The position numbers and the translations under genes were made by a program. Below, piece by piece: positions 1-28,832 of a DNA stretch of 28,832 nt (its first letter is position 1; each line of letters starts with the position of its first letter). Origin of the DNA: a virus; IMG/VR virus record IMGVR_UViG_3300027580_000014, positions 1 to 28,832 of that record; one strand, 5' to 3'. The notes under the pieces are model-generated. The model ran no database searches and was not told the origin of the DNA. It was given only the letters and a program-made list of their open reading frames with translations.

Positions 1-1059
1 GCGGATCTGCCCTACCGCACCGCGGCGGAGTGCATCGACTGGAGCCAGCCCTGCCCGTCCATCTTCCTGAGCAAGGAGGAGGGACGCAAATATGGGGTCA
101 AGCGCCCCTTGGCAGAGAAAACCCTCCAGCGCATCGCCAAGGGCATTGATAAATTTGTCTTGCAGGATCCAGAGCCCTATGTGGTCAATTTCAGCCCACC
201 GGCCCCGGCCAGCAAAAGTCGGTATGCAGAGGTGCAAGAATTCCTCCGCGATGTGGGAGCTGCTCCCTTTGTTTCCAAGATGCGGGGCGGAGCCACGGGC
301 TTTCCCTGCACAGCGCCCATGCACACAATCACAAGCGGCGGCAATCCGGCCAGGCCCAGTACGGGCAATCCTTTGGCCCTGGCGGTCCCTTTCCTCGCTC
401 CCCGATATGGGGAGCGGCCCGGCCAAGAGCCCCGGGCGCAGCCCGCGAATCAACCCTTGGCGACCATCACCGGAACCAATAACGGCGGCCGCCTGGCTGT
501 GGCCCATTTGGCCAAGCATTACGGCGGGGTTGTCGGCCACGGCGCGGACCAGCCCCTGGGTTCCGTGACCGCGCGGGATCATCACTCCTTGGTTACCAGC
601 CACCTGCTCCACCTGCGCAACAACTGTCATTCCCGCGATACGCGCACGCCACTGCCGACCCTGACAGCAGGCGGCGGCCATGTCGGCGAGGTGCGGGCCT
701 TTTTGCTCAAGTATTACGGGCAGGGAGTCGGCCAGGAAGCGGGTGTTCCCTTGGACACCATCACCGGCCGGGATCGCTTCGGGGTCGTGGTCACTATCCA
801 GGGCGAGGAATATGTGCTCGCGGATATCGGCATGCGTATGCTGCAGCCGCGCGAGCTGTTCATGGCCCAAGGATTCCCTGCCGACTATCGCCTGGACGGA
901 ATGACCAAGACGCAGCAGGTGCGGCTCTGCGGCAACAGTGTGCCGCCCCAGTTTTCCGAGGCCCTGGTGGAAACCAACTTTGCGGTCGAGGACAGACGGA
1001 ACGACTGGTCCTACTTGCCGCTGATGCGGGGGTCGGCCGCCAGGCGGGTGGAAGCGTAA
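1..1059 (+). CDS. DNA (cytosine-5-)-methyltransferase, 3' part (5' end outside window)
   Basis: The open frame runs in from base 1 and ends at 1059, giving 352 residues of the C-terminal part. The first residues (RTAAECIDWSQPCPSIF) match a segment typical of phage Dcm-type enzymes, and near the end QVRLCGNSVPP is conserved motif X, preceded by a LQPRELFMAQGFP stretch (motif IX region). The roughly 200 residues between would be the target-recognition region; several T-I-T-x-x-D/T segments recur in it. The SAM-binding motif I and the catalytic Pro-Cys motif IV lie left of the window. Known role: methylation of cytosine C5 in phage DNA, usually to resist host restriction. No restriction endonuclease is nearby, so it is probably a solitary phage enzyme. 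A possible internal start at 109 would give a non-catalytic fragment and is not preferred. Confidence 0.9.
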   Translation, partial: ADLPYRTAAECIDWSQPCPSIFLSKEEGRKYGVKRPLAEKTLQRIAKGIDKFVLQDPEPYVVNFSPPAPASKSRYAEVQEFLRDVGAAPFVSKMRGGATGFPCTAPMHTITSGGNPARPSTGNPLALAVPFLAPRYGERPGQEPRAQPANQPLATITGTNNGGRLAVAHLAKHYGGVVGHGADQPLGSVTARDHHSLVTSHLLHLRNNCHSRDTRTPLPTLTAGGGHVGEVRAFLLKYYGQGVGQEAGVPLDTITGRDRFGVVVTIQGEEYVLADIGMRMLQPRELFMAQGFPADYRLDGMTKTQQVRLCGNSVPPQFSEALVETNFAVEDRRNDWSYLPLMRGSAARRVEA

Positions 1060-6043: not shown

Positions 6044-8088
6044 CCCAACAAGCCACCCTCCCCTCCATCGACGCCAGCGCCGGGACGCGGGTCCGGATCC
6101 GGGCGGACGCTCCCTGGGTGCCGGAGTCCGTACGGGAGCGGGTGCGCTCCGAGGGCGCGGTGGCGCACCGCTCCGGGTTCTCCAAGGCCGAGCGGCGGAT
6201 CCTGCGCAAGCGGCCGCGCATCCCGGTCAGCCAGTGGGCGGAGCAGCACCGCTGGGTGCGGGTCTCCTCGCGCGCCGGGCAGTGGTCCAACGCGGTCACG
6301 CCCTATCTGGCCGGGGTTATGGACGCCATCGGGCACCCCTCGGTCCGGGACGTGACCATCTGCGCCGCGCCGCAGACGGGCAAGACGGAAGCGACCTACA
6401 ACGCCCTGGGCTACTGGATCGACCGGGATCCGGGTCCGGCCCTGGTGGTCTTCGCTGACGAGCAGACCTCGAGGGACGAGCACGAGGAGCGGATCAAGCC
6501 CATGCTCGAGGACTCGCCCCGCCTGCGGCAGTACAAGACCGCGGCCGCGCGCGACACCACCACGCTCAAGGCCAGCCTGCAGCACATGGTCCTGCACCTG
6601 GCCTGGGCCACGTCCGTTGCCCGCCTGGCCACCAAGCCCAAGCGCTACGTGATATTCGACGAGGTGGACAAGTATCCCGAGGGGTTCAAGCGGGAGACGG
6701 ACCCCATCAACCTGGGGGTCCTGCGCACGCGGACCTACAGGGACGAGCGCAAGATCGCCAGGCTGTCCACGCCCACCTGGGCGGAGGGGCCCATCTGGAC
6801 CTCGCTGCAGCAGTGCCAGGCCGTGTTCCACTACCATGTCCGCTGCCCGCACTGTCGCGTGCTGCAACAGATGGTCTTCGGCGAGCGGGACTCCGCGGGC
6901 GGGATCAAGTGGCCCGAGGACCAGCGCGATCCGAATATCATCGAGGCGGAGCGCCTGGCCTGGTACGAGTGCCCGCACTGCGGCGGGGCCTGGGATGACG
7001 CTGCGCGGGACCGGAGCGTGCGCCTGGGCGAATGGCGCGAGGCCAACACCGGCCGCGAGCTCTCCCGCGAGCTGGAGGCGAGCCGCCCGGCCCGGATCGG
7101 GTTTCACCTGCCGGCCTGGCTGAGCTCCTTTGTCAGCCTCTCCGAGTGCGCCGCCTCCTTCCTGCGCGGCCAGGAGAGCAAGAGCGCCCTGCGGGATTTC
7201 ATGAACGCCATCTGCGCCGAGCCGTGGGTGGAATATGAGGCGGAGCGCAGCGAGGACCAGGTGCTGGCCCTGTGCGACGAGCGGCCGCGCGGCCAGGTCC
7301 CGGAGGAGGCGGACGTGCTGCTGGCGGCAGTGGATACCCAGGACAACGGGTTCTGGTATGAGATCCGCGCCTTTGCCGCCGGCCCGCTGCTGGAGTCCTG
7401 GCAGGTGCGGGAAGGCTTCGTGGCGGCGGACTGGTCCAAGGTGGACCCGGCGGAGCTCTCGGGCCGGAGCTGGCCCTACCACCCCGCCTTCGACGCGCTG
7501 CGCCAGATCTTGTGGGAGGACGAGTACCGCGACGCCTCGGGCCGGACGCGCCAGGTCCTGTTCTGCGGGATCGACGCCATGGGGCACCATACGTCCGAAG
7601 TTTATGATTTTTGCCGCGCGCACAAGGGCAAGATCGCGCCCCTGCAGGGCAAGCCAAATCGTCAGAACACCCCGCGCAAGTGGTCCAAGATCGACACCTA
7701 CCCCGGGTCCAACCGGAACATCCCCGGCGGGGTCCAGTTGCTGCAGCTGGATGTCAACTCCTTCAAGGACGAGCTCTCGGGCAAGCTCCAGGTGGCGGCC
7801 ATGGACCCGGGGGCCTGGCACATGCACTCGGAGACGAGCCGGGACTGGGCCCGGCAGCTCTGCTCGGAATACATCGACGAGAAGTCCGGCCGCTGGGTCT
7901 GCGCCTCGGGACGGGCGAACCACGCCTGGGACTGCTCGGTCTACGTCCTGGCCCTGGCCGAGGAGCTGGGGGTGCGGCACATGAGGCGGGAATCCGGCCA
8001 GCAGGAGCGGCCGCGAGGCCAGCAGCGGGGAGCGGAGCGTCGCCGCCCCAACCCGTACACACACGGGCAAAACCCTTTCGGATCATAA
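6040..8088 (+). CDS. terminase large subunit, lambda GpA family
   Basis: The 682-residue length is normal for GpA-type terminases. The ATPase shows Walker A PQTGKTE at 111-117 and Walker B VIFDEVD at 204-210. N-terminal features include VSQWAEQHRWV, typical of the family. Two CPHC pairs (RCPHCRV near 269 and ECPHCGG near 312) form the zinc knuckle often seen in this family. The nuclease half begins near AAVDTQDN (D432), with further acidic residues such as CGIDAMGHHT near 510. It would translocate DNA into the prohead and cut it at the packaging site with the small subunit encoded upstream. The first codon overlaps the upstream stop (ATGA). Confidence 0.95.
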   Translation: MTQQATLPSIDASAGTRVRIRADAPWVPESVRERVRSEGAVAHRSGFSKAERRILRKRPRIPVSQWAEQHRWVRVSSRAGQWSNAVTPYLAGVMDAIGHPSVRDVTICAAPQTGKTEATYNALGYWIDRDPGPALVVFADEQTSRDEHEERIKPMLEDSPRLRQYKTAAARDTTTLKASLQHMVLHLAWATSVARLATKPKRYVIFDEVDKYPEGFKRETDPINLGVLRTRTYRDERKIARLSTPTWAEGPIWTSLQQCQAVFHYHVRCPHCRVLQQMVFGERDSAGGIKWPEDQRDPNIIEAERLAWYECPHCGGAWDDAARDRSVRLGEWREANTGRELSRELEASRPARIGFHLPAWLSSFVSLSECAASFLRGQESKSALRDFMNAICAEPWVEYEAERSEDQVLALCDERPRGQVPEEADVLLAAVDTQDNGFWYEIRAFAAGPLLESWQVREGFVAADWSKVDPAELSGRSWPYHPAFDALRQILWEDEYRDASGRTRQVLFCGIDAMGHHTSEVYDFCRAHKGKIAPLQGKPNRQNTPRKWSKIDTYPGSNRNIPGGVQLLQLDVNSFKDELSGKLQVAAMDPGAWHMHSETSRDWARQLCSEYIDEKSGRWVCASGRANHAWDCSVYVLALAEELGVRHMRRESGQQERPRGQQRGAERRRPNPYTHGQNPFGS

Positions 8089-8098
8089 GGGGAGCGCT

Positions 8099-8326
8099 AT
8101 GCAAGGTGCCACGTTAATGGCCTACGCCATCCAGCAGGCGGAGTCCGGGGTGGACTACGACCGCAAGGCAGGAGCGGCCTGCCCCTTTTGTGGGCACAAG
8201 GTCAAGGTGCAGGACACCAGGCCCTGGACGGGCAACAGCCGCATCCGCTACCACCGTTGCCGCAACGAGCGGTGCCCGCTGTACGAGTTCGAGCGCTCGA
8301 TCAAAAGTGTTGAGTCCCTGGGATAA
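8099..8326 (+). CDS. Ogr/Delta-like zinc-finger protein, 75 aa
   Basis: The core from about residue 27 to 70 has CPFC followed by VQDTRPWTGNSRIRYHRC, then RNERC and an ERSIKSVE tail. This is the layout of small phage zinc fingers related to Ogr/Delta transcription activators: a CxxC, a basic strand-turn-strand, then CxxxxC. The ATG at 8099 follows AAGGGGAGCG; a second in-frame ATG at 8117 is possible. Known relatives of this fold activate phage late genes by contacting RNA polymerase. Whether this one does is inference. Alternatively it may be a simple zinc-ribbon accessory of the terminase. Confidence 0.65.
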   Translation: MQGATLMAYAIQQAESGVDYDRKAGAACPFCGHKVKVQDTRPWTGNSRIRYHRCRNERCPLYEFERSIKSVESLG

Positions 8327-8343
8327 TTTTTTGCCCTTCCCTG

Positions 8344-8373
8344 TTGACATTTTGCACCCGCAGGGTGCAAAAT
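8344..8373 (+). promoter_or_regulatory. promoter with overlapping perfect palindrome (operator)
   Basis: TTGACA at 8344-8349 is a consensus -35 box. CAAAAT at 8368-8373, 18 bases downstream, is an acceptable -10. The spacer holds a perfect inverted repeat: arm TTTTGCACCC at 8350-8359, centre GCA, arm GGGTGCAAAA at 8363-8372. A dimeric protein bound here would cover both boxes and block polymerase. It points at the 52-aa gene starting at 8417. There is no T run after the stem, so a terminator is unlikely. Confidence 0.65.
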
Positions 8374-8416
8374 AAGCCTATCAATAAACGGGAAACCCGA
8401 ACAGGGAGGGGCAAAA

Positions 8417-8575
8417 ATGACAAACGAATACGTGAACGAGGTGCTGGCGGACCTCAAAATTGAGGTCAAGGTCAAGGGCGCCACCCAGGTGGCCGAGGAG
8501 CTCGGGGTCCGCGAGGAGGCGGTAAGAGAGATGGTCCCGGAGGAGGCCAGGCGCCACGACGAGGCCACGGCCTAG
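8417..8575 (+). CDS. small putative helix-turn-helix protein, 52 aa
   Basis: The ATG at 8417 lies 7 bases behind GGGAGGGG, a very strong ribosome site. The product is acidic. Residues 21-41 (GATQVAEELGVREEAVREMV) have the spacing of a helix-turn-helix: a first helix with Ala at position 5, a Gly at the turn, and a second amphipathic helix. This matches Cro or XRE-type cores, though the protein is short. The perfect palindrome in its own promoter suggests autoregulation, which is inference. I recognise no named family. A non-DNA-binding small helical protein remains possible. Confidence 0.6.
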   Translation: MTNEYVNEVLADLKIEVKVKGATQVAEELGVREEAVREMVPEEARRHDEATA

Positions 8576-8584
8576 AGGAGAACG

Positions 8585-8608
8585 GCCCCGGCCCGGAAGG
8601 GTCGGGGC
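8585..8608 (+). other. 10-bp RNA hairpin with GGAA tetraloop
   Basis: GCCCCGGCCC at 8585-8594 pairs with GGGTCGGGGC at 8599-8608 (one G-T wobble) around a GGAA loop, a GNRA-type tetraloop. It follows the 52-aa gene stop and precedes the next ribosome site. With no T tract it is better read as an mRNA stabiliser or processing element than a terminator. Confidence 0.5.
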
Positions 8609-8628
8609 GCAAGCCATTGGAGGGGGTT

Positions 8629-8850
8629 ATGTCGGACCTAACAGAACGAGAGCAAGGATTGGCCCAGGGTTTTAGCGAGGGGGTTATCCTCAGCGTGGAT
8701 ACGCTGCTTGCCGAGAGCGGAGATACTGTCGTGGCTGAGTCGGTTTTGAAACAGCATGCAGGAAGTAAGGAATCTGTTCATAGACGGGTTGCACGCATGC
8801 GGCATCTACTTTTGAACCCTGAGCGAATCATACAGTTGATGGAGCATTGA
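8629..8850 (+). CDS. hypothetical protein, 73 aa
   Basis: The ATG at 8629 is preceded by GGAGGGGG at 8619-8626; the TTG at 8617 is in frame but lies before that ribosome site. The protein is helical and without cysteine, with a basic patch (ESVHRRVARMRHLLL) in the second half. I recognise no family. The stop at 8848-8850 lies five bases before the next ATG, so the two are likely co-translated. It belongs to the small island expressed from the promoter at 8344. Confidence 0.6.
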   Translation: MSDLTEREQGLAQGFSEGVILSVDTLLAESGDTVVAESVLKQHAGSKESVHRRVARMRHLLLNPERIIQLMEH

Positions 8851-8855
8851 GGATT

Positions 8856-9146
8856 ATGCGTAAAATCATCAGAGGAGTCCGCTACGACACCGAAAAGGCC
8901 CGCCTCGTCGGCCAGGCCTCGTGTTGCTGCTGGGACGCCTGGCTCTTCTGCGCCAGGCGTTCGGGGCGCTACTTCCTGTTCGGCGAGGGCGGGCCCATGA
9001 GCCGCTTTGCCCAGTCCGCCGGCCGCAACGTCCTCAAGGGCGGGCGGGACATTATCCCGCTCAGCCGCGAGGAGGCCCTGCGCTGGGCCAGGGAATACCT
9101 GGAGCCCAACGAGATCGGGGCCGAGTTTGGAGAATCCGCCGATTAA
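8856..9146 (+). CDS. conserved hypothetical phage protein, 96 aa (KIIxGxRYDTEKA type)
   Basis: The opening MRKIIRGVRYDTEKARLVG and the later segment YFLFGEGGPMSRFA, followed by IIPLSREEALRWAREYLE, match a small protein family I have seen repeatedly in prophages and plasmids. The family's function is unknown. A short Cys cluster (SCCCWD) lies near residues 22-27. The ATG at 8856 is preferred over the in-frame TTG at 8847 because GAGGA precedes it. It is the last gene of the island, followed by a clear terminator at 9156-9189. Confidence 0.7.
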   Translation: MRKIIRGVRYDTEKARLVGQASCCCWDAWLFCARRSGRYFLFGEGGPMSRFAQSAGRNVLKGGRDIIPLSREEALRWAREYLEPNEIGAEFGESAD

Positions 9147-9155
9147 CCCGCCCCA

Positions 9156-9189
9156 AAGCCCCGGCTTTTCCCATCAGCCGGGGCTTTTT
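9156..9189 (+). terminator. rho-independent terminator
   Basis: AAGCCCCGGC (9156-9165) and GCCGGGGCTT (9177-9186) form a perfect 10-bp stem with an 11-base loop. Five T run through 9185-9189. It lies 9 bases after the stop of the 96-aa gene and closes the transcript of the island. Confidence 0.88.
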
Positions 9190-9272
9190 ACGTCCGCCCC
9201 ACATTTCCCTCCTGAGCGCCGCGGCCTCAGCCTCCGACCCAACCCACGAAAAACGCCTTTCCAGCCCCTCAC

Positions 9273-9293
9273 AACCCCGATTTTGGCGGGGTT
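9273..9293 (+). terminator. possible second terminator or hairpin
   Basis: AACCCCG and CGGGGTT form a 7-bp stem around ATTTTGG, followed by CTTGT. The T tract is poor, so termination is uncertain. It may back up the strong terminator 100 bases upstream. Confidence 0.35.
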
Positions 9294-9332
9294 CTTGTCC
9301 GGGCCGCCCGCCGATCGGGCCGGCTGTCAATG

Positions 9333-9363
9333 TATGACGAGTCATAATCTATGACCAGTCACA
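9333..9363 (+). promoter_or_regulatory. tandem inverted repeats, probable operator before head genes
   Basis: TATGAC-GA-GTCATA (9333-9346) is a perfect 14-bp palindrome. TATGAC-CA-GTCACA (9350-9363) is the same site with one mismatch, 17 bases apart centre to centre. CATAAT at 9343-9348 within the pair could be a -10 box, but I see no good -35. The pair lies 80 bases before the gpW-like start. TGAC-N2-GTCA sites bind TetR-like or similar dimeric regulators in other bacteria. No such regulator is in the window. Confidence 0.55.
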
Positions 9364-9444
9364 ATGCGCGCTCATGGGCAATGTGTATTCTGAGGGAAAA
9401 TTGAGCATTGACAGAACTGGATAAACCCCGACCCGGAGCTTTCC

Positions 9445-9675
9445 ATGGCAACAGTCACCGAGCTGGAGCAGGAGCTCTCGCTCTACAAGACCGCCCGCCA
9501 GAACATCCTGAAGTATGGGCAGGACATGAGCATGTCCGACGGCCGCCAGCTGACCCACGCGGACCTCAAGTGGATCGACACGCGGATACGCGATCTGGAG
9601 AACCGGATCCAGATCCTGAACAACGGCGGCCGGATCAACACCCAGCAGGCCGTATTCGGAGGCAGGCGTGGCTGA
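9445..9675 (+). CDS. gpW-like head-tail connector protein, 76 aa
   Basis: This is a small helical protein immediately before the portal, as lambda gpW is. It has an N-terminal helix (LEQELSLYKTARQNILKYGQ), a turn (DMSMSDGRQLTHADL) and a second helix (IDTRIRDLENRIQIL), in keeping with the gpW fold. GpW caps the portal after DNA filling and allows tail joining. The ATG at 9445 has CCGGAG before it, and the end overlaps the portal start (GTG at 9668). The assignment rests on fold pattern and position; some databases may label it only as a DUF. Confidence 0.7.
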   Translation: MATVTELEQELSLYKTARQNILKYGQDMSMSDGRQLTHADLKWIDTRIRDLENRIQILNNGGRINTQQAVFGGRRG

Positions 9676-11344
9676 GGGCAAGCGCGGATTCGGCACACGC
9701 ATCCTGGACGGCACCACCCGCGCCGTGGCCTACGGCGTGGCCATGTTCTCCCCCAGCGCCGCGGCCCGCTACGTCTACGGGATGCAGACCTTCCGCAACT
9801 ACGCCGCCGCCGCCCTGTCCGGACCGAACAAGAACTGGCGCCCCACGAACAAGTCCGCGGACGAGATGCTGCGACGGGACCAGAAAACCCTCCGGGCCCG
9901 GGCGCGGGACCTGGTGCGCAACTCTCCTCACATTTCCGGGGCCCTGGGCAAGCTGGCCAACAATGTCATCTTCCGCGGCCTGGAGCCGCAGGCCCGCCTC
10001 AAGACCGGCCAGGGCGAGCCCAAGACCTCCCAGAACAAGCGCGCGGACGCCGTTTTCAAACGCTGGGCCAAGCGCGTGGACTTCTACATGATCCAGCGCC
10101 TGGTTCTGAATCATTTGTGGATGGATGGCGAGATCCTGATCCACTACTACTTTGAGCCGGACTATCTGAAAGAGGGGATAGCGCCTCTCGGTATCGAGCT
10201 GCTGGAGTGCGATCACCTGGACGACTGGGTTGACGGCACCCTGCCCAGCGGCAACATCGCCAAGCGCGGCATCGAGTACACCCCGCGCGGCAAGGTGGTG
10301 GCCTATCACATCCAGGAGGAGCATCCCGGGGACACGGGCATGCTCGCCCTGTCCCAAACCCGCCGCATTCCCGCGGACCGCATCGAGCACGTGTACCGTC
10401 CGATCCGGGCCTCGCAGCACAGGGGCGAGCCCTGGCTCACCAGCGTGATCACGGACATCAAGGATATGTCCGAGATCCGCGACTCGGAGCGCATCGCCTA
10501 TCGCCTGGCCAGCGCCTTCGGCATCTTCGTGACCTCGCCCTATCCCGAGCACCAGGTTCCGGGGCAGAACCCGGTGACCAATCAGGAGTCCCAAAGCAAG
10601 ACCCCGCAAGATATTTCGGAGTTCATCGATCCGGGCCGCGTGGACGTGCTGCCCCCGGGCATGGAGATCCAGGTGGCCAAGAACGAGCGCCCCGGGACCA
10701 CGTACGAGCCCTTCATGAAGGACACCAAGAAGGGCGTCTCCGCGGGCATCAACATGAGCTATTCCGCTTTCGCCAACGATTACACCGATACCTCCTACTC
10801 CGGGGAGCGCGCCGCCTCCCTGGAGGAACGGCGCGGATACATGGTGCAGCAGGAGCTCCTGGGGAACAAGGTTGTGGAGCCCACCTGGGACCGGGTGCAC
10901 GCCATGTCCCGCATGGCCGGGGTGGAAACCCTGCCTGCGGAAATCCCCATGGAGCTGACCACTCCGGGCTGGCCCTGGGTGGACCCGGACAAGGACAGTA
11001 AAGCCGCGGAGCGCGACCTGAAAAATGTCCTGACCACCAGGCGCAAAATGTGCGCGGATCGCGGCCTGGACTTTGACGAGGTGGTCGAGCAGCAGCGGCG
11101 GGAAAAAGAGCAGATTGAACAGGCCGGGATCGAGGACCCGTTCGCCTCCGACGGCCAGGGCTCCGGATCCCGCAACTACCGTCCCCTGCCCGAGCCCGGG
11201 GAGGACGAGGACGAGGACGAATTCATCGACCGCTGCATGGGGGACAAGGCCATGAAGAGCGAGTTCCCCAAGCCCAAGCAGCGCTACAGGGTTTGCGAGC
11301 GCATCTGGGAAGAGGCCCAGGAGGAGGAAGACGAGAATGAGTAG
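9668..11344 (+). CDS. portal protein, lambda family
   Basis: A 558-residue portal. The N-terminal segment contains RNYAAAALSGPNKNW, followed by LRARARDLVRNSPHISGALGKLANNVI, typical of lambda-type portals. The middle has VDVLPPGMEIQVA and SYSAFANDYTDTSYSGERA, which correspond to the crown/stem region of the family. The C-terminus is strongly acidic (GEDEDEDEF). Twelve copies would form the vertex through which DNA enters. The start is GTG at 9668 with GGAGGCAG upstream, overlapping gpW. The stop overlaps the capsid gene start. Confidence 0.93.
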   Translation: MAEGKRGFGTRILDGTTRAVAYGVAMFSPSAAARYVYGMQTFRNYAAAALSGPNKNWRPTNKSADEMLRRDQKTLRARARDLVRNSPHISGALGKLANNVIFRGLEPQARLKTGQGEPKTSQNKRADAVFKRWAKRVDFYMIQRLVLNHLWMDGEILIHYYFEPDYLKEGIAPLGIELLECDHLDDWVDGTLPSGNIAKRGIEYTPRGKVVAYHIQEEHPGDTGMLALSQTRRIPADRIEHVYRPIRASQHRGEPWLTSVITDIKDMSEIRDSERIAYRLASAFGIFVTSPYPEHQVPGQNPVTNQESQSKTPQDISEFIDPGRVDVLPPGMEIQVAKNERPGTTYEPFMKDTKKGVSAGINMSYSAFANDYTDTSYSGERAASLEERRGYMVQQELLGNKVVEPTWDRVHAMSRMAGVETLPAEIPMELTTPGWPWVDPDKDSKAAERDLKNVLTTRRKMCADRGLDFDEVVEQQRREKEQIEQAGIEDPFASDGQGSGSRNYRPLPEPGEDEDEDEFIDRCMGDKAMKSEFPKPKQRYRVCERIWEEAQEEEDENE

Positions 11345-13577
11345 CGAGATGGCCCGCATGCCGCGCATGCAGTTCCGCGATACCGAACGGCAGCTCACCG
11401 CGCGCCAAAGCGCCGGCCTGCAGCCGGAGACCTTCGACGCCGAGTCCGGATCCGTCCGCTTTGTGGCGGCCACGGAAAAGCCCACCACTGTCTTTGACAT
11501 GGAGGACCTGGAGCTCATCGACGAGGTCCTGCTCATGGACGGGATGCAGCTGCCTCCGGGCGAGCGGGTCCCGCTTTTGAACGCGCATTCCCGCTTCCAG
11601 GTGGACGACGTGCTGGGCAGCGCAACGGAGTTCCGGCAGACCACCACCGAAGGCTACCGCGCAGTCGAGCCTCTGGTCACCTTCTCCGGGGTGAGCAAGG
11701 CGCAGGAGTCGGCCCAGCTGGTCCGGGAGGGCCACCTCACGGACGTGAGCGTGGGCTATCTGGTCCTGGAACGGGAGCGGATCCCCAAGGGCGAGTCCCG
11801 CACCATTCGCGGCAGGAAATATAAGGGCCCCATGCGTGTGGCCACCAAGTGGGAGCTCAAGGAAGTAAGCCTAACGCCCATCGGTGCCGACGACCTGGCC
11901 AAGGCCCGAGGGAAAAATTCAAGCCATGGCGGCTACAGGGAGGATGCCATGAACAAGGAACTCAGGAAATTTCTGGAGCGCATGGGCCTGGATCCCAAGG
12001 CGACCGAGGCCCAGGCCAAGCAGTATCTGGACAACCTGCGGGCCCGCGAGGACCTGCAGCAGGAGACCCGCTCCGAGCTGGAGAAGCTGGAGCGCGATGC
12101 CGGGGACAGCCCGGACCTGACCCCAATCGATCAGCCCTCTGGCGGGACCGGGTCCGGACAGGGCAACACAGGCCACCGCAGCGAGCCCTCCGGCGGATCC
12201 GGAGGCGGTTCCGGCGGGGACGGCGGACAGCGCCAGTATGTGGCCCTGGACGAGGTCCGCGGCATGATCGACGACGCCGTGCACAAGGCCACGCAGGAGA
12301 CCCTGCAGAACGAGTACAAGCGGCAGGACGACATCCGCGAGACGGTGCGCCTGGCCGGATACGGCTCTGACGTGGCGGATGAGTATATCCGCAGCGGCGA
12401 GGACGTGAACACGGTCCGCTCCAAGCTCTTCGAGCGGATGAAGACCGAGGCCCCGCCAGTGGGCGCCGGTCGGATCAGCGTGGGCGAGCACGACCAGGAC
12501 AAGTTCCGGGCGGCGGCGGTCAGCGGACTGTTGGTGCGCTGCGGGATCCGCGAGGAAAAGCCAGCGCCGGGTCACGAGGCTTTCCGGGCCGCGTCCATCG
12601 AGAAGGTGGCGCGGGAGTGCCTGGAGCGCATGGGCGTGAATACCAGGAGCCTGGCCTCCAGGGACCAGGTGGCCCGGGAGATCCTCAAGCGGGCCGGGTC
12701 CGTCTCCACGGACGATTTCCCCTCCATTTTCCTGGATGTGGCAAACAAGGTGCTCCTGCAGGCCTATCGCGAGTCGCCCAACACCTGGCGGCCCTGGGTC
12801 AACGTGGTGAGCGCCAGCGACTTCAAGGACCAGTATGGGGTGAGTCTGTCCGAGGCCCCGGATCTGGAGCTGGTGGACCAGAACGGCGAATTCAAGCACG
12901 GCAGCTTCTCCGACAAGCAGGAGTCCTACGCCCTGGGCACCTACGGCAAGATCGTCGATCTGACCCGCCAGATGATCGTCAACGACGACATGCGCGCCTT
13001 CTCCCGCCTGCCCAGGCTGCTCGGCAACGCCGCGCGGCGCAAGGAGGCGGAGATCGTCTACTCCCTGCTCATCAACAACCCCACCATGAGCGACGGGAAC
13101 AAGCTGTTCTCCTCCAACCATAACAACCTGGGCTCCAACGTGGGCCGGGTGACCTCGGATCGGCTGGCCTCCGGACGCGGAACCATGCGCAGGCAGAAAG
13201 GCCCGCAGGGCGCGCACCTGGATCTGCAGCCCGCAATCCTGCTTACGCCCACGAGCCAGGAGACGGACGCGGAAGTACTCCTGCGCTCCGCCACCCTGCC
13301 GGTCTCCGGCGCGAACGCGGACTACAACCCCTGGGCCAACAAGCTGCGGCCCATCGCCGAGCCGCGACTGGACGACGATTCCGAGGACGCCTGGTATCTC
13401 ATCGCGGATCCGAACCAGGTGGACACCGTCGAGGCGGCCTTCCTGGACGGCAATGAGGAGCCCTACTTCGAGGAGCAGCAGGAGTTCGGCCGCGACGCGG
13501 TGAGCTACAAGGTCCGGCACGACTTCGGCGCCGGGGTTATGGAATGGCGCGGATTCTTCAAGAACCCCGGGACATAG
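11337..13577 (+). CDS. prohead protease / major capsid protein fusion
   Basis: The 746-residue frame joins two functions. Residues 1-185 are an HK97-type prohead protease: NAHSR at 82-86 (catalytic His84) and DVSVGY at 136-141 (catalytic Ser138), then EVSLTPIGAD near 179-188. Residues 205-255 form a charged helical scaffold-like region. A Gly/Ser-rich linker (about 262-296) separates it from a second helical part, and the capsid (HK97 fold) occupies roughly 410-746, with SLSEAPDLELVDQNGEFK and a C-terminal FGRDAVSYKVRHDFGAGVMEWRG-like strand. The ATG at 11337 overlaps the portal stop. An in-frame ATG at 11949 with an excellent ribosome site could give a separate 542-residue scaffold-capsid product. 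Confidence 0.9.
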   Translation: MSSEMARMPRMQFRDTERQLTARQSAGLQPETFDAESGSVRFVAATEKPTTVFDMEDLELIDEVLLMDGMQLPPGERVPLLNAHSRFQVDDVLGSATEFRQTTTEGYRAVEPLVTFSGVSKAQESAQLVREGHLTDVSVGYLVLERERIPKGESRTIRGRKYKGPMRVATKWELKEVSLTPIGADDLAKARGKNSSHGGYREDAMNKELRKFLERMGLDPKATEAQAKQYLDNLRAREDLQQETRSELEKLERDAGDSPDLTPIDQPSGGTGSGQGNTGHRSEPSGGSGGGSGGDGGQRQYVALDEVRGMIDDAVHKATQETLQNEYKRQDDIRETVRLAGYGSDVADEYIRSGEDVNTVRSKLFERMKTEAPPVGAGRISVGEHDQDKFRAAAVSGLLVRCGIREEKPAPGHEAFRAASIEKVARECLERMGVNTRSLASRDQVAREILKRAGSVSTDDFPSIFLDVANKVLLQAYRESPNTWRPWVNVVSASDFKDQYGVSLSEAPDLELVDQNGEFKHGSFSDKQESYALGTYGKIVDLTRQMIVNDDMRAFSRLPRLLGNAARRKEAEIVYSLLINNPTMSDGNKLFSSNHNNLGSNVGRVTSDRLASGRGTMRRQKGPQGAHLDLQPAILLTPTSQETDAEVLLRSATLPVSGANADYNPWANKLRPIAEPRLDDDSEDAWYLIADPNQVDTVEAAFLDGNEEPYFEEQQEFGRDAVSYKVRHDFGAGVMEWRGFFKNPGT
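11937..11951 (+). promoter_or_regulatory. strong internal ribosome site and start within protease-capsid gene
   Basis: AGGGAGG (11937-11943) stands 5 bases before an ATG at 11949, in frame with the fusion (codon 205). It begins MNKELRKFLERMG, exactly where the protease domain ends. This resembles the lambda C/Nu3 arrangement, in which the scaffold starts inside the protease gene. Confidence 0.65.
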
Positions 13578-14063: not shown

Positions 14064-14336
14064 ATGTCATCTCTGGAAGTCGGATTGATAACGGTTTTGG
14101 CGGGTCTGGTTGTGGGCGTGGCCGTGCGGCTGCTCACCCAGAGCCGGTTCGTGAGTCGCGGGGAGTGTCAGCGGATGCATCAATACGATGACCAGTGGAA
14201 GCGCCAGGTAACCCAGCAGTTGACCGCCCAATCGCGGATGATTCGGGCCTTGGTCCTCAACTCCGGGATGAGTCCCCAGGATCAGCAGACCATCCTGGAG
14301 AACTGCGAAGTCCAAGTGGAGAGAAACGATGGCTGA
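14064..14336 (+). CDS. small membrane protein, 90 aa, lysis region
   Basis: One N-terminal membrane helix (about residues 5-24, VGLITVLAGLVVGVAVRLL) is followed by a soluble helical tail with many Gln. The topology would suit an inner-membrane spanin or a holin accessory, and its place ahead of the endolysin supports a lysis role. No lipobox or second membrane span is seen. The ATG at 14064 is preceded by GAGTGAGG. It overlaps the next gene by eight bases. Function is inferred from position only. Confidence 0.6.
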   Translation: MSSLEVGLITVLAGLVVGVAVRLLTQSRFVSRGECQRMHQYDDQWKRQVTQQLTAQSRMIRALVLNSGMSPQDQQTILENCEVQVERNDG

Positions 14337-24370: not shown

Positions 24371-24723
24371 TATCAATAAGTGCGCCGCTTTATGATCTGG
24401 AGGGCCATGTGCTCCTGTCTCCGTCCCCGGACTCTGACTTGCAGGGAGGGTCCCGCAGGGTATCCCGCACACCTACTCTGGATGGAGGGGCAACGATTGT
24501 AGACCAGGGGATGAGCCACGCGGACCGGACATTTCAGATCACGGTCCCCAATATATCAGAAAACAAATACAACACCGTCTGGTATCTGCTCCGGACCTAT
24601 GGCCTTGTGAACATTGCTACCCGAGAAGGCGTCTTCTCGGGGACTATCAGTCGCGCCAGGGTCCGAAGCGGTAATCTTGAAATGACAATCCTCATACAGG
24701 AGAAGAACGATGGCATCAGCTAA
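24367..24723 (+). CDS. small tail protein, 118 aa
   Basis: The ATG at 24367 overlaps the hub stop (ATGA) and has AGGAG 5 bases upstream. A repeated pattern in many tail regions is visible: SRRVSRTPTLDGGATIVDQG followed by ADRTFQITV, then a second half of helix and strand with GNLEMTILIQEK. I have seen similar short proteins next to tail-tip genes, but their role is unknown to me. It overlaps the following gene by 14 bases. Confidence 0.65.
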   Translation: MISISAPLYDLEGHVLLSPSPDSDLQGGSRRVSRTPTLDGGATIVDQGMSHADRTFQITVPNISENKYNTVWYLLRTYGLVNIATREGVFSGTISRARVRSGNLEMTILIQEKNDGIS

Positions 24724-25357
24724 TTTCCCAGTCGATACCCTGGAGCTCCACAAGGGGCAAGGCGATCTGGATCTGGTCAACGACACAATCAAGGTGGCTC
24801 TGCTCGCCTCATTCGCGCCCACGTATTCGGCCTGGGCCTCTAGCACCAGTTATGCCGAAGGCGATATCGTGATTCCGACTACTCGGAATGGGCGTCGCTA
24901 CCGGGCGACAAACTCCGGAACGTCCGGGTCCGGTGAGCCGACGTGGCCCACCGCCGCAGGTGGCACGGTCACGGACAACGACATCACCTGGGAGGAATAC
25001 GGAGGAGAGCATGCCGACAACGAGTATTTCAACGACGTGTCGGCTAATGAATTGGCCGGCGGCGATGGCTATACTGCCGGGGGGCAGCCCCTGAGCACCA
25101 AGTCCCTCGCCAAGCTCTCCACGGACCCCGCTGTTGTAAAGTGGGACGCGGACGATGTGACCTGGACCAGCCTTTCCAAGACATTCATGACGGCTTGGCT
25201 CTATGTGGACGGAGACACGCCAGGGTCGAACGATTACGTGATCGGGTATATTCTGCTGGACGATACGCACTCCAGCGTGAGTATCAACGGGGTGGACTTC
25301 ACTCTCAAGTTCAGCTCTGATGGAATCCTAATCTTCGGGCGCAAGGCGACTCTGTAA
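24710..25357 (+). CDS. tail accessory protein with inserted carbohydrate-binding-like module, 215 aa
   Basis: The outer parts (residues 1-37 and 100-215) form a known phage tail domain: NDTIKVALL at the start, then the conserved NELAGGDGYTAGGQPL, VTWTSLSKTF and GVDFTLKF. Residues about 39-98 are an added module, WASSTSYAEGDIV followed by YRATNSGTSGSGEPTWP and DITWEE, which resembles a small chitin-binding-like or fibre module seen in phage and glycosidase proteins. A host-surface binding role fits. The ATG at 24710 has AGGAG 7 bases upstream. Confidence 0.7.
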   Translation: MASANFPVDTLELHKGQGDLDLVNDTIKVALLASFAPTYSAWASSTSYAEGDIVIPTTRNGRRYRATNSGTSGSGEPTWPTAAGGTVTDNDITWEEYGGEHADNEYFNDVSANELAGGDGYTAGGQPLSTKSLAKLSTDPAVVKWDADDVTWTSLSKTFMTAWLYVDGDTPGSNDYVIGYILLDDTHSSVSINGVDFTLKFSSDGILIFGRKATL

Positions 25358-25427: not shown

Positions 25428-27437
25428 ATGGCGATAACTGATTTTGACCACAGAAAGCTTCTCGAAGTTACGAGTGCGCCCGGATCTCCGTCCTTCTCTC
25501 GTGCTGCTTGCCTCAATATCACGTCTGGAAGTGGGGGGGAGACAGGCACAGGCGAAATTGCGCTTGATTGGAGCAACATCTCTAGTGCAGCGGACTTGGC
25601 TGTTTACGACGAGAACAACAATCTTCTTGATTACTACATCGAGCACTTTGACGCATCGAGCCAGCAGGCCACATTGTGGGTTCATCGGTCCTGGGTCCGT
25701 GATGGCAGTGTCCAGGCCAAAATCGCTTATGGCAACGGTTCAGGTGATCAATCGGTATCGGCTCCGACAATCTTTGATAATGAAGCCAACATCCAGGCTG
25801 TCTATCTCTGCAACGAGGTCTCTGGGGATATAATAGACAAAACGAGCAACGGCAGAGATGGAACAGTTTACGGATGTTCGCGTGGTCTGGATGCTATTGT
25901 CGGACGTGCGTATGGTTTCAATGGGAGCAGTGATTATGTGGGTCTCCCGGCAAATCTCCGCGATATATTCAAGTATAAAGATTGGACTGTTCTAGCGTTA
26001 TATAAATGGCGATCTGATACAAATGGTGTGCTGATAGGAACACAAGATGGCTCAACGTATGATTCGTTTCGTCTATATGAAGATGGGACAGTTAGGTGGC
26101 GGGATGCTGATTACGAGCCAAACCAGGCATACACTGACATTGATGTTGGCGACTATGATGTGTTCCATGCGATGGGCGATTCGACCACGATTTACGGGTT
26201 TCGGAACGGCTCATTGATATCTACTGGCGACATATCTTTCATGAACGAGCCAATCAACATTGATTCCAGCAGCGATCTTCCTCTTGGAGCAAACGACGAT
26301 GAAGGCGCTCTAGATAATTTCATGGACATGGAGCTGTCCTGTGTCTTGATTTATGATGCAAAGCTATCTGATGATGACGCTAAGGCACAGGCTGATGCAA
26401 TATTCAATTCTCTTCTTTATCAGCGTCCGGCTGAGATAAGTATTGGTTCCCCTTCCGCTGCTGTCGGTAGCGCTGCCATTGAGCCCATAGTAATCCCGAT
26501 AATTGTTCCGACGGAAACGGAAGCACACTTTGGCTTTTCTCCATCCTGGGATGCGAATCAGATTTTTGTCTCTTTAACTCGATCAGCGTCGTTCCCTCTG
26601 ACCCCAATAGCAGACTTTCATCTCACAGCTTCAGGAGGTGAATCTGCGTTTGAGTTGGGGACGCATACGGCCGAAATCGCCGCTCCGGTTCCGGTAATTC
26701 GTACAGCCACCGATGGGATATCCCCTCTAGTCCCCTACATGAACATAGCATCAGCTCCATCGGCAGTGCGCTCCCTAGTCGTTTCTCCTGACGTGGGTTA
26801 TCCGATCTGGGCGACGGGGTCGGCCGTGGCGGCTGAGGCCCCAATACGCAATTTTGTCAATAATGCTCCATTGGGGTCGATCTCGTCTCTGGGCCGAGCT
26901 TGGTGGAGGTGGGACGCGGATCCGGTCCGAGCCAGGATCCTATACCGGGTGGTGCTTACCGGGGCCGCGGACGGCGTGCCAGATGTAGATCTTCCGGCAA
27001 CCCATATTCATGTTCGGCGTAGGGAGGACAAGGAGCTGTCCTACATCGAGGTGGAGACCGCGCCTCTTGCGGATACAGCCGCCCGGATCGCGGACAGATC
27101 CTCCGGGCAGATACTGGTTGATCGTGGTCTGAGCGTGGGGCTCGGATGGCACTGGATCCGGATCGCGGAGGCCAGATTGGACGATGTGGAGGTCCTGCGG
27201 GAGCGCCGGTTCCGCCTCTCGGGGAGAGGGTCGGAGCTGGAGCCGGCAGACCGCACAATGGTTCTCAGGCCTTCATATCGGAGTGAGGAGAATGAGGAGC
27301 TACGTTTACGTTCAGCGGTAGACCCGTTCCTCGCACCGGGGGATCGGGTGGACTTCCAGGGCCGGGTCGTGACCGTCCGGGAAATCAGCTACTATATCGC
27401 GGTGAGTGATGAGGAAATGGAAACATTAGGCTCGTAA
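25428..27437 (+). CDS. tail fibre / adhesin with DUF2341-like and LamG-like domains, 669 aa
   Basis: Residues 1-110 match DUF2341 (DFDHRKLLEVTS, then DYYIEHFD and AKIAYGNGSGD), a domain of surface proteins. Residues about 120-325 form a LamG/concanavalin-like jelly roll (AYGFNGSSDYVGLPANLRD, then SCVLIYDAKLSDDDAKAQAD). A Pro-rich and strand-rich middle follows. The last 180 residues are GC-richer and contain LAPGDRVDFQGRVVTVREISYYI. A weak ribosome site precedes ATG 25428; I see no better start. The N-terminal domains probably bind glycan, and the GC-rich C-terminal part may be the phage-specific portion. Confidence 0.72.
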   Translation: MAITDFDHRKLLEVTSAPGSPSFSRAACLNITSGSGGETGTGEIALDWSNISSAADLAVYDENNNLLDYYIEHFDASSQQATLWVHRSWVRDGSVQAKIAYGNGSGDQSVSAPTIFDNEANIQAVYLCNEVSGDIIDKTSNGRDGTVYGCSRGLDAIVGRAYGFNGSSDYVGLPANLRDIFKYKDWTVLALYKWRSDTNGVLIGTQDGSTYDSFRLYEDGTVRWRDADYEPNQAYTDIDVGDYDVFHAMGDSTTIYGFRNGSLISTGDISFMNEPINIDSSSDLPLGANDDEGALDNFMDMELSCVLIYDAKLSDDDAKAQADAIFNSLLYQRPAEISIGSPSAAVGSAAIEPIVIPIIVPTETEAHFGFSPSWDANQIFVSLTRSASFPLTPIADFHLTASGGESAFELGTHTAEIAAPVPVIRTATDGISPLVPYMNIASAPSAVRSLVVSPDVGYPIWATGSAVAAEAPIRNFVNNAPLGSISSLGRAWWRWDADPVRARILYRVVLTGAADGVPDVDLPATHIHVRRREDKELSYIEVETAPLADTAARIADRSSGQILVDRGLSVGLGWHWIRIAEARLDDVEVLRERRFRLSGRGSELEPADRTMVLRPSYRSEENEELRLRSAVDPFLAPGDRVDFQGRVVTVREISYYIAVSDEEMETLGS

Positions 27438-27449
27438 AAAGGATATTTT

Positions 27450-28832
27450 ATGGCTATATCTGCTACGTATGTGGATGGCTCCACATTTACAGTCAGCGGG
27501 GACAAGACAGGTGAGTTTGTCCAAGATCGTCGCGTCAAGGCAAACTGCGATACGGATGGAGACAAGTATTCCAGCGTATCCAGTTCATCTTATGACGGCG
27601 GCTCTGATGCGACAACGGTCAACATTGAGGATTCCGTTCTTACTTCGAATTTAGTCGAGGTTTGGTTCGGGATGGTAGCTCCGGGGAGCACCGGATCGTT
27701 GCCTCTACATACGCATGCAAGTGATGATCAAGGAGGCAGCCTCGTTATCGCCTACGGGGTTCGGTGGGACAGCATCAATGACCTCTACGAGCCAGGGTTC
27801 GTCCAGGGAAACGCATTTGTCGGCGGAAATTCTGAACTGTTCGTTCACAATAAGATGGGACGAGGGCTCCTGACCAGCGGTGGATCCTGGAGCAAGTTAA
27901 ACCCCGATGATTCGACCCAATATGAGGATGGATCAGCCGCAACACTTGATGGTAGCGCAGGCCAGGTTATGGTCAAGATCCCTGTCTTTTATCAGCTTAT
28001 CTTGCGTGACAATCAATATGTTTACTTTCTCGTGAGCGACCAGCCTTTCTCTTTCAAAGGGTCCAGCGCCTGGATCCCCAAGGGCTTTTACAAGGGTGGC
28101 TCTACAGCAAGCGAACGTTACTGCGGGGCTTTTGAGGCGGTGGCGGCGAGTGATTCAACATCGGCGACCGCAAAAAGTATTGTCAAGGACACGTCTGGAT
28201 ACTCAATGAGCTATCCCAACCCGTTCACCAGTCTTACGCGAGGTGATTTCCGGTCGCAGTGCAGCGACGGCATCTTTCATCAATGGGATTGGGGCTTGTG
28301 GGAGATAGTCGCTATCCTATTCTTGGCTGAATACAAAACCTGGTATTCCCAAAATGTGCTCCCTGGTTATACCTGGAAATCCAGCTGGGACTACGGCTAT
28401 ACCTATCAGGTGGGACAGACCGCCTCTCTAGGCGATGCGTCTGGTACGATCACTGATGGTAGCAGCAACGTCATCGCCAATTCTTTTCGCGGGATTGAAA
28501 ACCTGTACGGGCATGTATGGAATTGGGTTGACGGGATAAACATCGACAATACAAGCGGCAATGTCCACGTCTACACGTGCTATGATCCATCGAGCTTTGC
28601 GGACGACACAACCACAGGCTATACGGACACTGGTCATGCCCCTGGTTTCGGGGACACCGATGACTATATCAAAGATATTTTGGGGCAGGGAGAGCTGTGT
28701 CCCTTTTTCCCATCAGAGCTAGGCAATGGTGCCGATAGCTCGTCCTTTATCACGGACTATATGTGGAACGCTTCCGGCGATTGGCGGGTGTTGCGGGTCG
28801 GCGGGCGTCTCTCGCCGGAAGATCGGCGTCAC
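27450..28832 (+). CDS. C-type-lectin/FGE-like receptor-binding protein, 3' end outside window (DGR target candidate)
   Basis: The ATG at 27450 follows AAAAAGGA by 5-6 bases, and the frame is open for 461 codons to the window end. Residues 1-95 are a fibre module common in phages (YVDGSTFTVSGDKTGEF, RRVKANCD, then SVLTSNLVEVWFG). Residues about 180-461 resemble the C-type-lectin fold of formylglycine-generating-enzyme-like proteins: FRGIENLYGHVWNWVDGI near 346, and WRVLRVGGRLSPEDRRH at 445-461. Such proteins end, 20-40 residues later, in the variable repeat of diversity-generating retroelements (Mtd and TvpA are examples). The fold assignment is by pattern; the retroelement is inference, because the next bases are missing. 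Confidence 0.75.
   Translation, partial: MAISATYVDGSTFTVSGDKTGEFVQDRRVKANCDTDGDKYSSVSSSSYDGGSDATTVNIEDSVLTSNLVEVWFGMVAPGSTGSLPLHTHASDDQGGSLVIAYGVRWDSINDLYEPGFVQGNAFVGGNSELFVHNKMGRGLLTSGGSWSKLNPDDSTQYEDGSAATLDGSAGQVMVKIPVFYQLILRDNQYVYFLVSDQPFSFKGSSAWIPKGFYKGGSTASERYCGAFEAVAASDSTSATAKSIVKDTSGYSMSYPNPFTSLTRGDFRSQCSDGIFHQWDWGLWEIVAILFLAEYKTWYSQNVLPGYTWKSSWDYGYTYQVGQTASLGDASGTITDGSSNVIANSFRGIENLYGHVWNWVDGINIDNTSGNVHVYTCYDPSSFADDTTTGYTDTGHAPGFGDTDDYIKDILGQGELCPFFPSELGNGADSSSFITDYMWNASGDWRVLRVGGRLSPEDRRH

Follow-up and report, generated by a model that had tools for sequence, protein, structure and literature searches.

Described variable proteins of diversity-generating retroelements (DGRs) include TaqVP and Mtd. 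TaqVP of Thermus aquaticus (PDB 5VF4; PMC6328139) has a C-type-lectin/FGE-like fold like that of the last protein encoded in the window analyzed here, and carries its variable repeat (VR) in the C-terminal end, as is probable for the window protein. The identity between the two is approximately 16%, and the window protein differs by an additional N-terminal part and by its truncation. Mtd of the Bordetella phage BPP-1 (PDB 1YU0-1YU4) is similarly a phage receptor-binding DGR target with a C-terminal VR. It was a weaker fold match than TaqVP, obtained with a relative of the window protein (L121), and its N-terminal organization differs; no sequence similarity between Mtd and the window protein was detected. 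A sequence relative (24.8%) occurs in the crAss-like phage cr53_1 (NC_055889), where an annotated reverse transcriptase (RT) adjoins it. For crAssE-Sib, PMC11054128 reports an RBP closest to TaqVP and an RT with the unusual motif GxxxSP. Both phages are different from the window phage.

The window is the entire IMG/VR record of 28,832 bases, in which no end repeat, terminal overlap or circular closure was found. It contains tailed-phage genes for a terminase, a portal, a fused head protease/major head protein, an endolysin, tail completion, a tape measure and the tail. The reading frame of the last gene is open up to the record end (Table 1). Since its protein matches PHROG 5302 'tail protein' (E 1.3e-50, residues 101-454) and has 35-67% identical relatives in other phages, the gene is considered to be real. 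A sequence-only reading had described a cut-off last gene with NLYGHVWNWVDG followed by WRVLRVGGRLSPEDRRH, and both were located exactly in their places, the latter as residues 445-461 (28782-28832) at the extreme end of the record. No accepted family was found for the protein in Pfam and NCBIfam, no match was obtained with the single protein in the searched genome contigs, and phmmer with the single sequence against the PDB gave no meaningful match. The neighboring tail-region proteins (25428-27437 and 24710-25357) matched DUF2341 (E 7.5e-7) and, below threshold, CBM_5_12. The gene at 25428-27437 has no close relatives among the viral contigs scanned, and its protein was absent from five records carrying relatives of the last gene.

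Table 1. Coordinates of features in the window.
Feature	Position	Strand	Remarks
DNA methyltransferase gene, 5'-truncated	1-1059		Opposite end of the record from the lectin gene
Head maturation protease fused to major head protein	11337-13577		PHROG 4523, E 1e-165
TaqVP/Mtd-like phage tail protein gene, probable DGR target, 3'-truncated	27450-28832	+	461 codons, stop-free
C-type-lectin (FGE-like) domain, conserved	27750-28781	+	Residues ~101-444; 35-67% identity to relatives
NLYGHVWNWVDG motif	28500-28535	+	Residues 351-362
Adenine-free run, 38 nt, coding strand	28781-28818	+	Expected when template adenines drive rewriting
Start of inferred VR	28782-28832	+	Position from relatives, where it runs on to about the stop codon; cut by the record end
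Final bases, PEDRRH	28815-28832	+	Outside the GxxAG motif of relatives

The AlphaFold model of the window protein reached a pTM of 0.67 with a confident lectin core; the truncated C-terminal end was not confident, with pLDDT values below 50 from residue 447 onward. In the Foldseek search with this model the top three hits were TaqVP chains, though with weak E-values. Using VIA-align, the model was superimposed on TaqVP (5VF4) with a Z-score of 13.2 over 236 residues, whereas all other scores were 2.8 or lower. The C-type-lectin (FGE-like) fold of TaqVP-like variable proteins is thus present in the predicted structure, and the DGR-type lectin fold proposed from the letters alone is supported. 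For the complete relative L121 (51% identity), the fold search placed TaqVP first (E 2.4e-5), followed by five Mtd variants. A profile built from 20 relatives had TaqVP as its sole match in the PDB (E 3.6e-6).

For the analysis of the gene family, approximately 200 relative loci were collected from viral-contig scans with the window protein and with alignments. They were clustered at 80% identity, and the tallies are based on the 87 families in which the sequence past the gene extends for 1.5 kb or more. An adenine-biased template repeat (TR) together with an RT, both directly downstream, could be identified in 57 of the 87 families, which supports this part of the sequence-only reading. Three families have the RT alone, six the repeat alone and 21 (about a quarter) neither, so that a TR was found in 63 and an RT in 60 families. 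The repeat test was positive for template A in 86 of 125 loci and for C, G and T in none. Since there were also no positives when a control stretch from within the gene was used, the test is regarded as specific. In L121, the VR of 128 nt differs from the TR at 25 positions, 24 of which are template adenines (p 6.5e-15); the corresponding values are 29/29 for L124, 26/27 for L126 and 21/23 for L128. DGR-type RTs are marked by a GxxxSQ motif, and G..SQ was detected by pattern matching in 65 of 68 distinct RTs.

The IMG/VR loci L121, L124, L126, L128 and L133 each have the order target gene (35-51% identical to the window protein), TR and RT, and, unlike the window, contain the whole cassette on the contig. 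An accessory Avd protein, which the sequence-only reading had named as frequent and which not every DGR has, did not appear: among the few cassette proteins examined in relatives no Avd-like gene was recognized, and two small downstream ORFs of relatives had no match in Pfam. A protein of ~99 aa (...VIFTGSDVLI...) without a Pfam match is encoded between target gene and TR at L121:1583-1882; L131 and L027 likewise have similar ORFs after their target genes. It is possible that this is an accessory protein or a common phage neighbor.

Among the four closest relatives that could be judged (44-51% identity), the cassette was present in three, namely L121 (51%), L124 (48%) and L133 (44%, TGA=Trp). 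For L131 (50%) no cassette was found within 2.8 kb downstream, and for L206 (67%) none within its ~0.5 kb of downstream sequence. An HNH/homing-endonuclease-like frame, recognized by eye, lies immediately 3' of the target gene in L206 (9200-9714). The contigs of L025/L123 (55%) stop shortly before the VR and that of L122 (53%) at the gene end. A degenerate DNA pattern spanning the VR start had no match in the viral contigs; therefore that set contains no near-identical phage, although the search may omit very near records.

In the relatives, the VR starts at the codons matching Trp445 (28782) or 10-30 nt before, so that ~50-75 VR bases already lie in the window. The VR had been thought to begin past the window with WRVLRVGG as lead-in to the variable part; the relatives instead place its start inside, and in them WRVLRVGG sits within the VR. 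VR substitutions were observed between relatives that are nearly identical, for example L001, L003 and L004. The VR start of the window is adenine-poor. The 38-nt adenine-free run compares with 18 nt for the second-longest run of the gene, and codon shuffles reached this length anywhere in the gene in 1.1% (P 0.011). Since one longer run of 44 nt occurs elsewhere in the window (at 14092), the run is only a moderate sign. Across the 103 loci with a TR, adenine makes up 10% of the last 120 nt compared to 27% upstream, and its share is lower in each of the 103; the gene ends of L206, L131, L122, L026 and L034 are likewise adenine-poor. Between window and L206 (67%), the VR start from TGG to CTCTCGC differs by one base (CGG/CTG, codon 449). 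The last 14-18 window bases match no VR of the relatives, in which A and G of the GxxAG motif are nearly invariant. With a 3-base gap against L206 some matches were regained in an unconvincing alignment, and a comparison of the window tail with the TRs of relatives gave no clear match. The odd final bases could reflect a different loop or an erroneous or poor contig end.

Contig ends of the family accumulate at this position: 11 contigs, excluding the window, stop within 150 nt past the VR start compared to ~2.2 expected from the mean per 150 nt further downstream (P 2e-5), in a set that is incompletely dereplicated and in which the ends of L047 and L060 are breaks in the stored scaffold and not true ends. 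The simple reason would be that hypervariable or repeated sequence stops assembly, and the end of the window itself fits this pattern. The search for a TR inside the window, on both strands and tolerant to adenine changes, yielded nothing beyond background, and no RT was found in the 28,832-base record, which stops inside the VR. Because the record ends there, the absence of both is uninformative.

The fold, the cassettes of the relatives, the adenine-free run and the pile-up of contig ends together make a DGR target likely. With a probability of roughly 0.7, the product of the last gene is a tail-tip receptor-binding protein with C-type-lectin fold, whose C-terminal VR is rewritten from a downstream TR by an adjacent RT. 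It is probably a further member of a known DGR system, with TR and RT lying off the record; by analogy to the relatives, the window phage would probably possess both as well as the mutagenic cycle and receptor binding through this protein. The C-terminal ~45 residues of the lectin-fold tail-tip protein would form the VR. In the intact phage, the TR would be located a few hundred bases downstream of the last gene, and the adjacent DGR RT would copy it with misincorporation at adenines. The mutated cDNA would then replace the VR, resulting in an altered binding surface.

It is unlikely, but the most plausible alternative, that the protein belongs to the family of DGR variable proteins while its cassette was lost or never present, leaving a fixed lectin tip under normal evolution. 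About a quarter of the relative families, including that of the 50% relative L131, are without TR and RT, and loss of the RT with the TR remaining is directly seen in L029, which lacks ~912 nt of the RT gene compared to L085; however, most of the closest relatives possess the cassette. The adenine-free VR start suggests past rewriting, yet a recent loss would also fit, and L131, L026 and L034, where no cassette was detected, have equally adenine-poor ends. FGE/C-type-lectin folds occur also without DGRs, and the last window bases depart from the VR motif. An ordinary lectin-fold tail protein that resembles DGR targets by fold alone, on a contig that ends here by chance, is nevertheless extremely improbable, as DGRs were found with sequence relatives and not only with fold relatives, and both adenine depletion and a pile-up of contig ends are seen at the VR.

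Diversification of the window VR by a TR and RT located elsewhere, distant in the genome, in the host or on another element, is improbable. DGRs with remote targets are mentioned by Roux et al. (PMC8144416), and six families carry a TR without an RT on records of 34-79 kb; the adjacent arrangement is however dominant in the family, and the records are fragments. It is more doubtful still that the window phage, like these six families, is a non-autonomous DGR rewritten in trans by the RT of a host or another phage. In Synechococcus phage S-EIV1 (L020:6779-7295; KJ410740.1), 26 of 28 VR/TR mismatches fall on template adenines, no RVT_1 match was found in the 79-kb circular genome, and the RT reading frame is reduced to its start (7179-7295). 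L029 (gene end 7101) has kept the TR, and the two stretches flanking its deletion that match L085 overlap by 8 nt. In L071 a C-terminal RT remnant is kept, while no RT could be recognized in L027, L062 and L174, all of which have a TR. Putative RT N-termini in L027 and L062 were rejected, since the matches are the TR itself in frame. RT remnants among the orphan-TR loci are thus restricted to L020, L029 and L071; they indicate decay and argue against a remote RT.

If the DGR-target interpretation is true, the window represents one more phage lineage in which host recognition evolves through targeted hypermutation. Thousands of comparable DGRs are already known, and a new case is therefore of modest value. 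Because the VR is a preferred end point for contigs in this family, an undetected DGR may be suspected wherever a phage fragment stops in a lectin gene, and a shortage of adenine in its final stretch can serve as a flag.

In the relative L133 (IMGVR_UViG_3300036940_000207, 7600-10600), reading TGA as Trp opens the target gene, TR and RT, and the recoded positions include the conserved NVWKFVDG and WRVLLVGG. Judged from its reading frames, L133 would be a DGR of a phage in which a stop codon is recoded.
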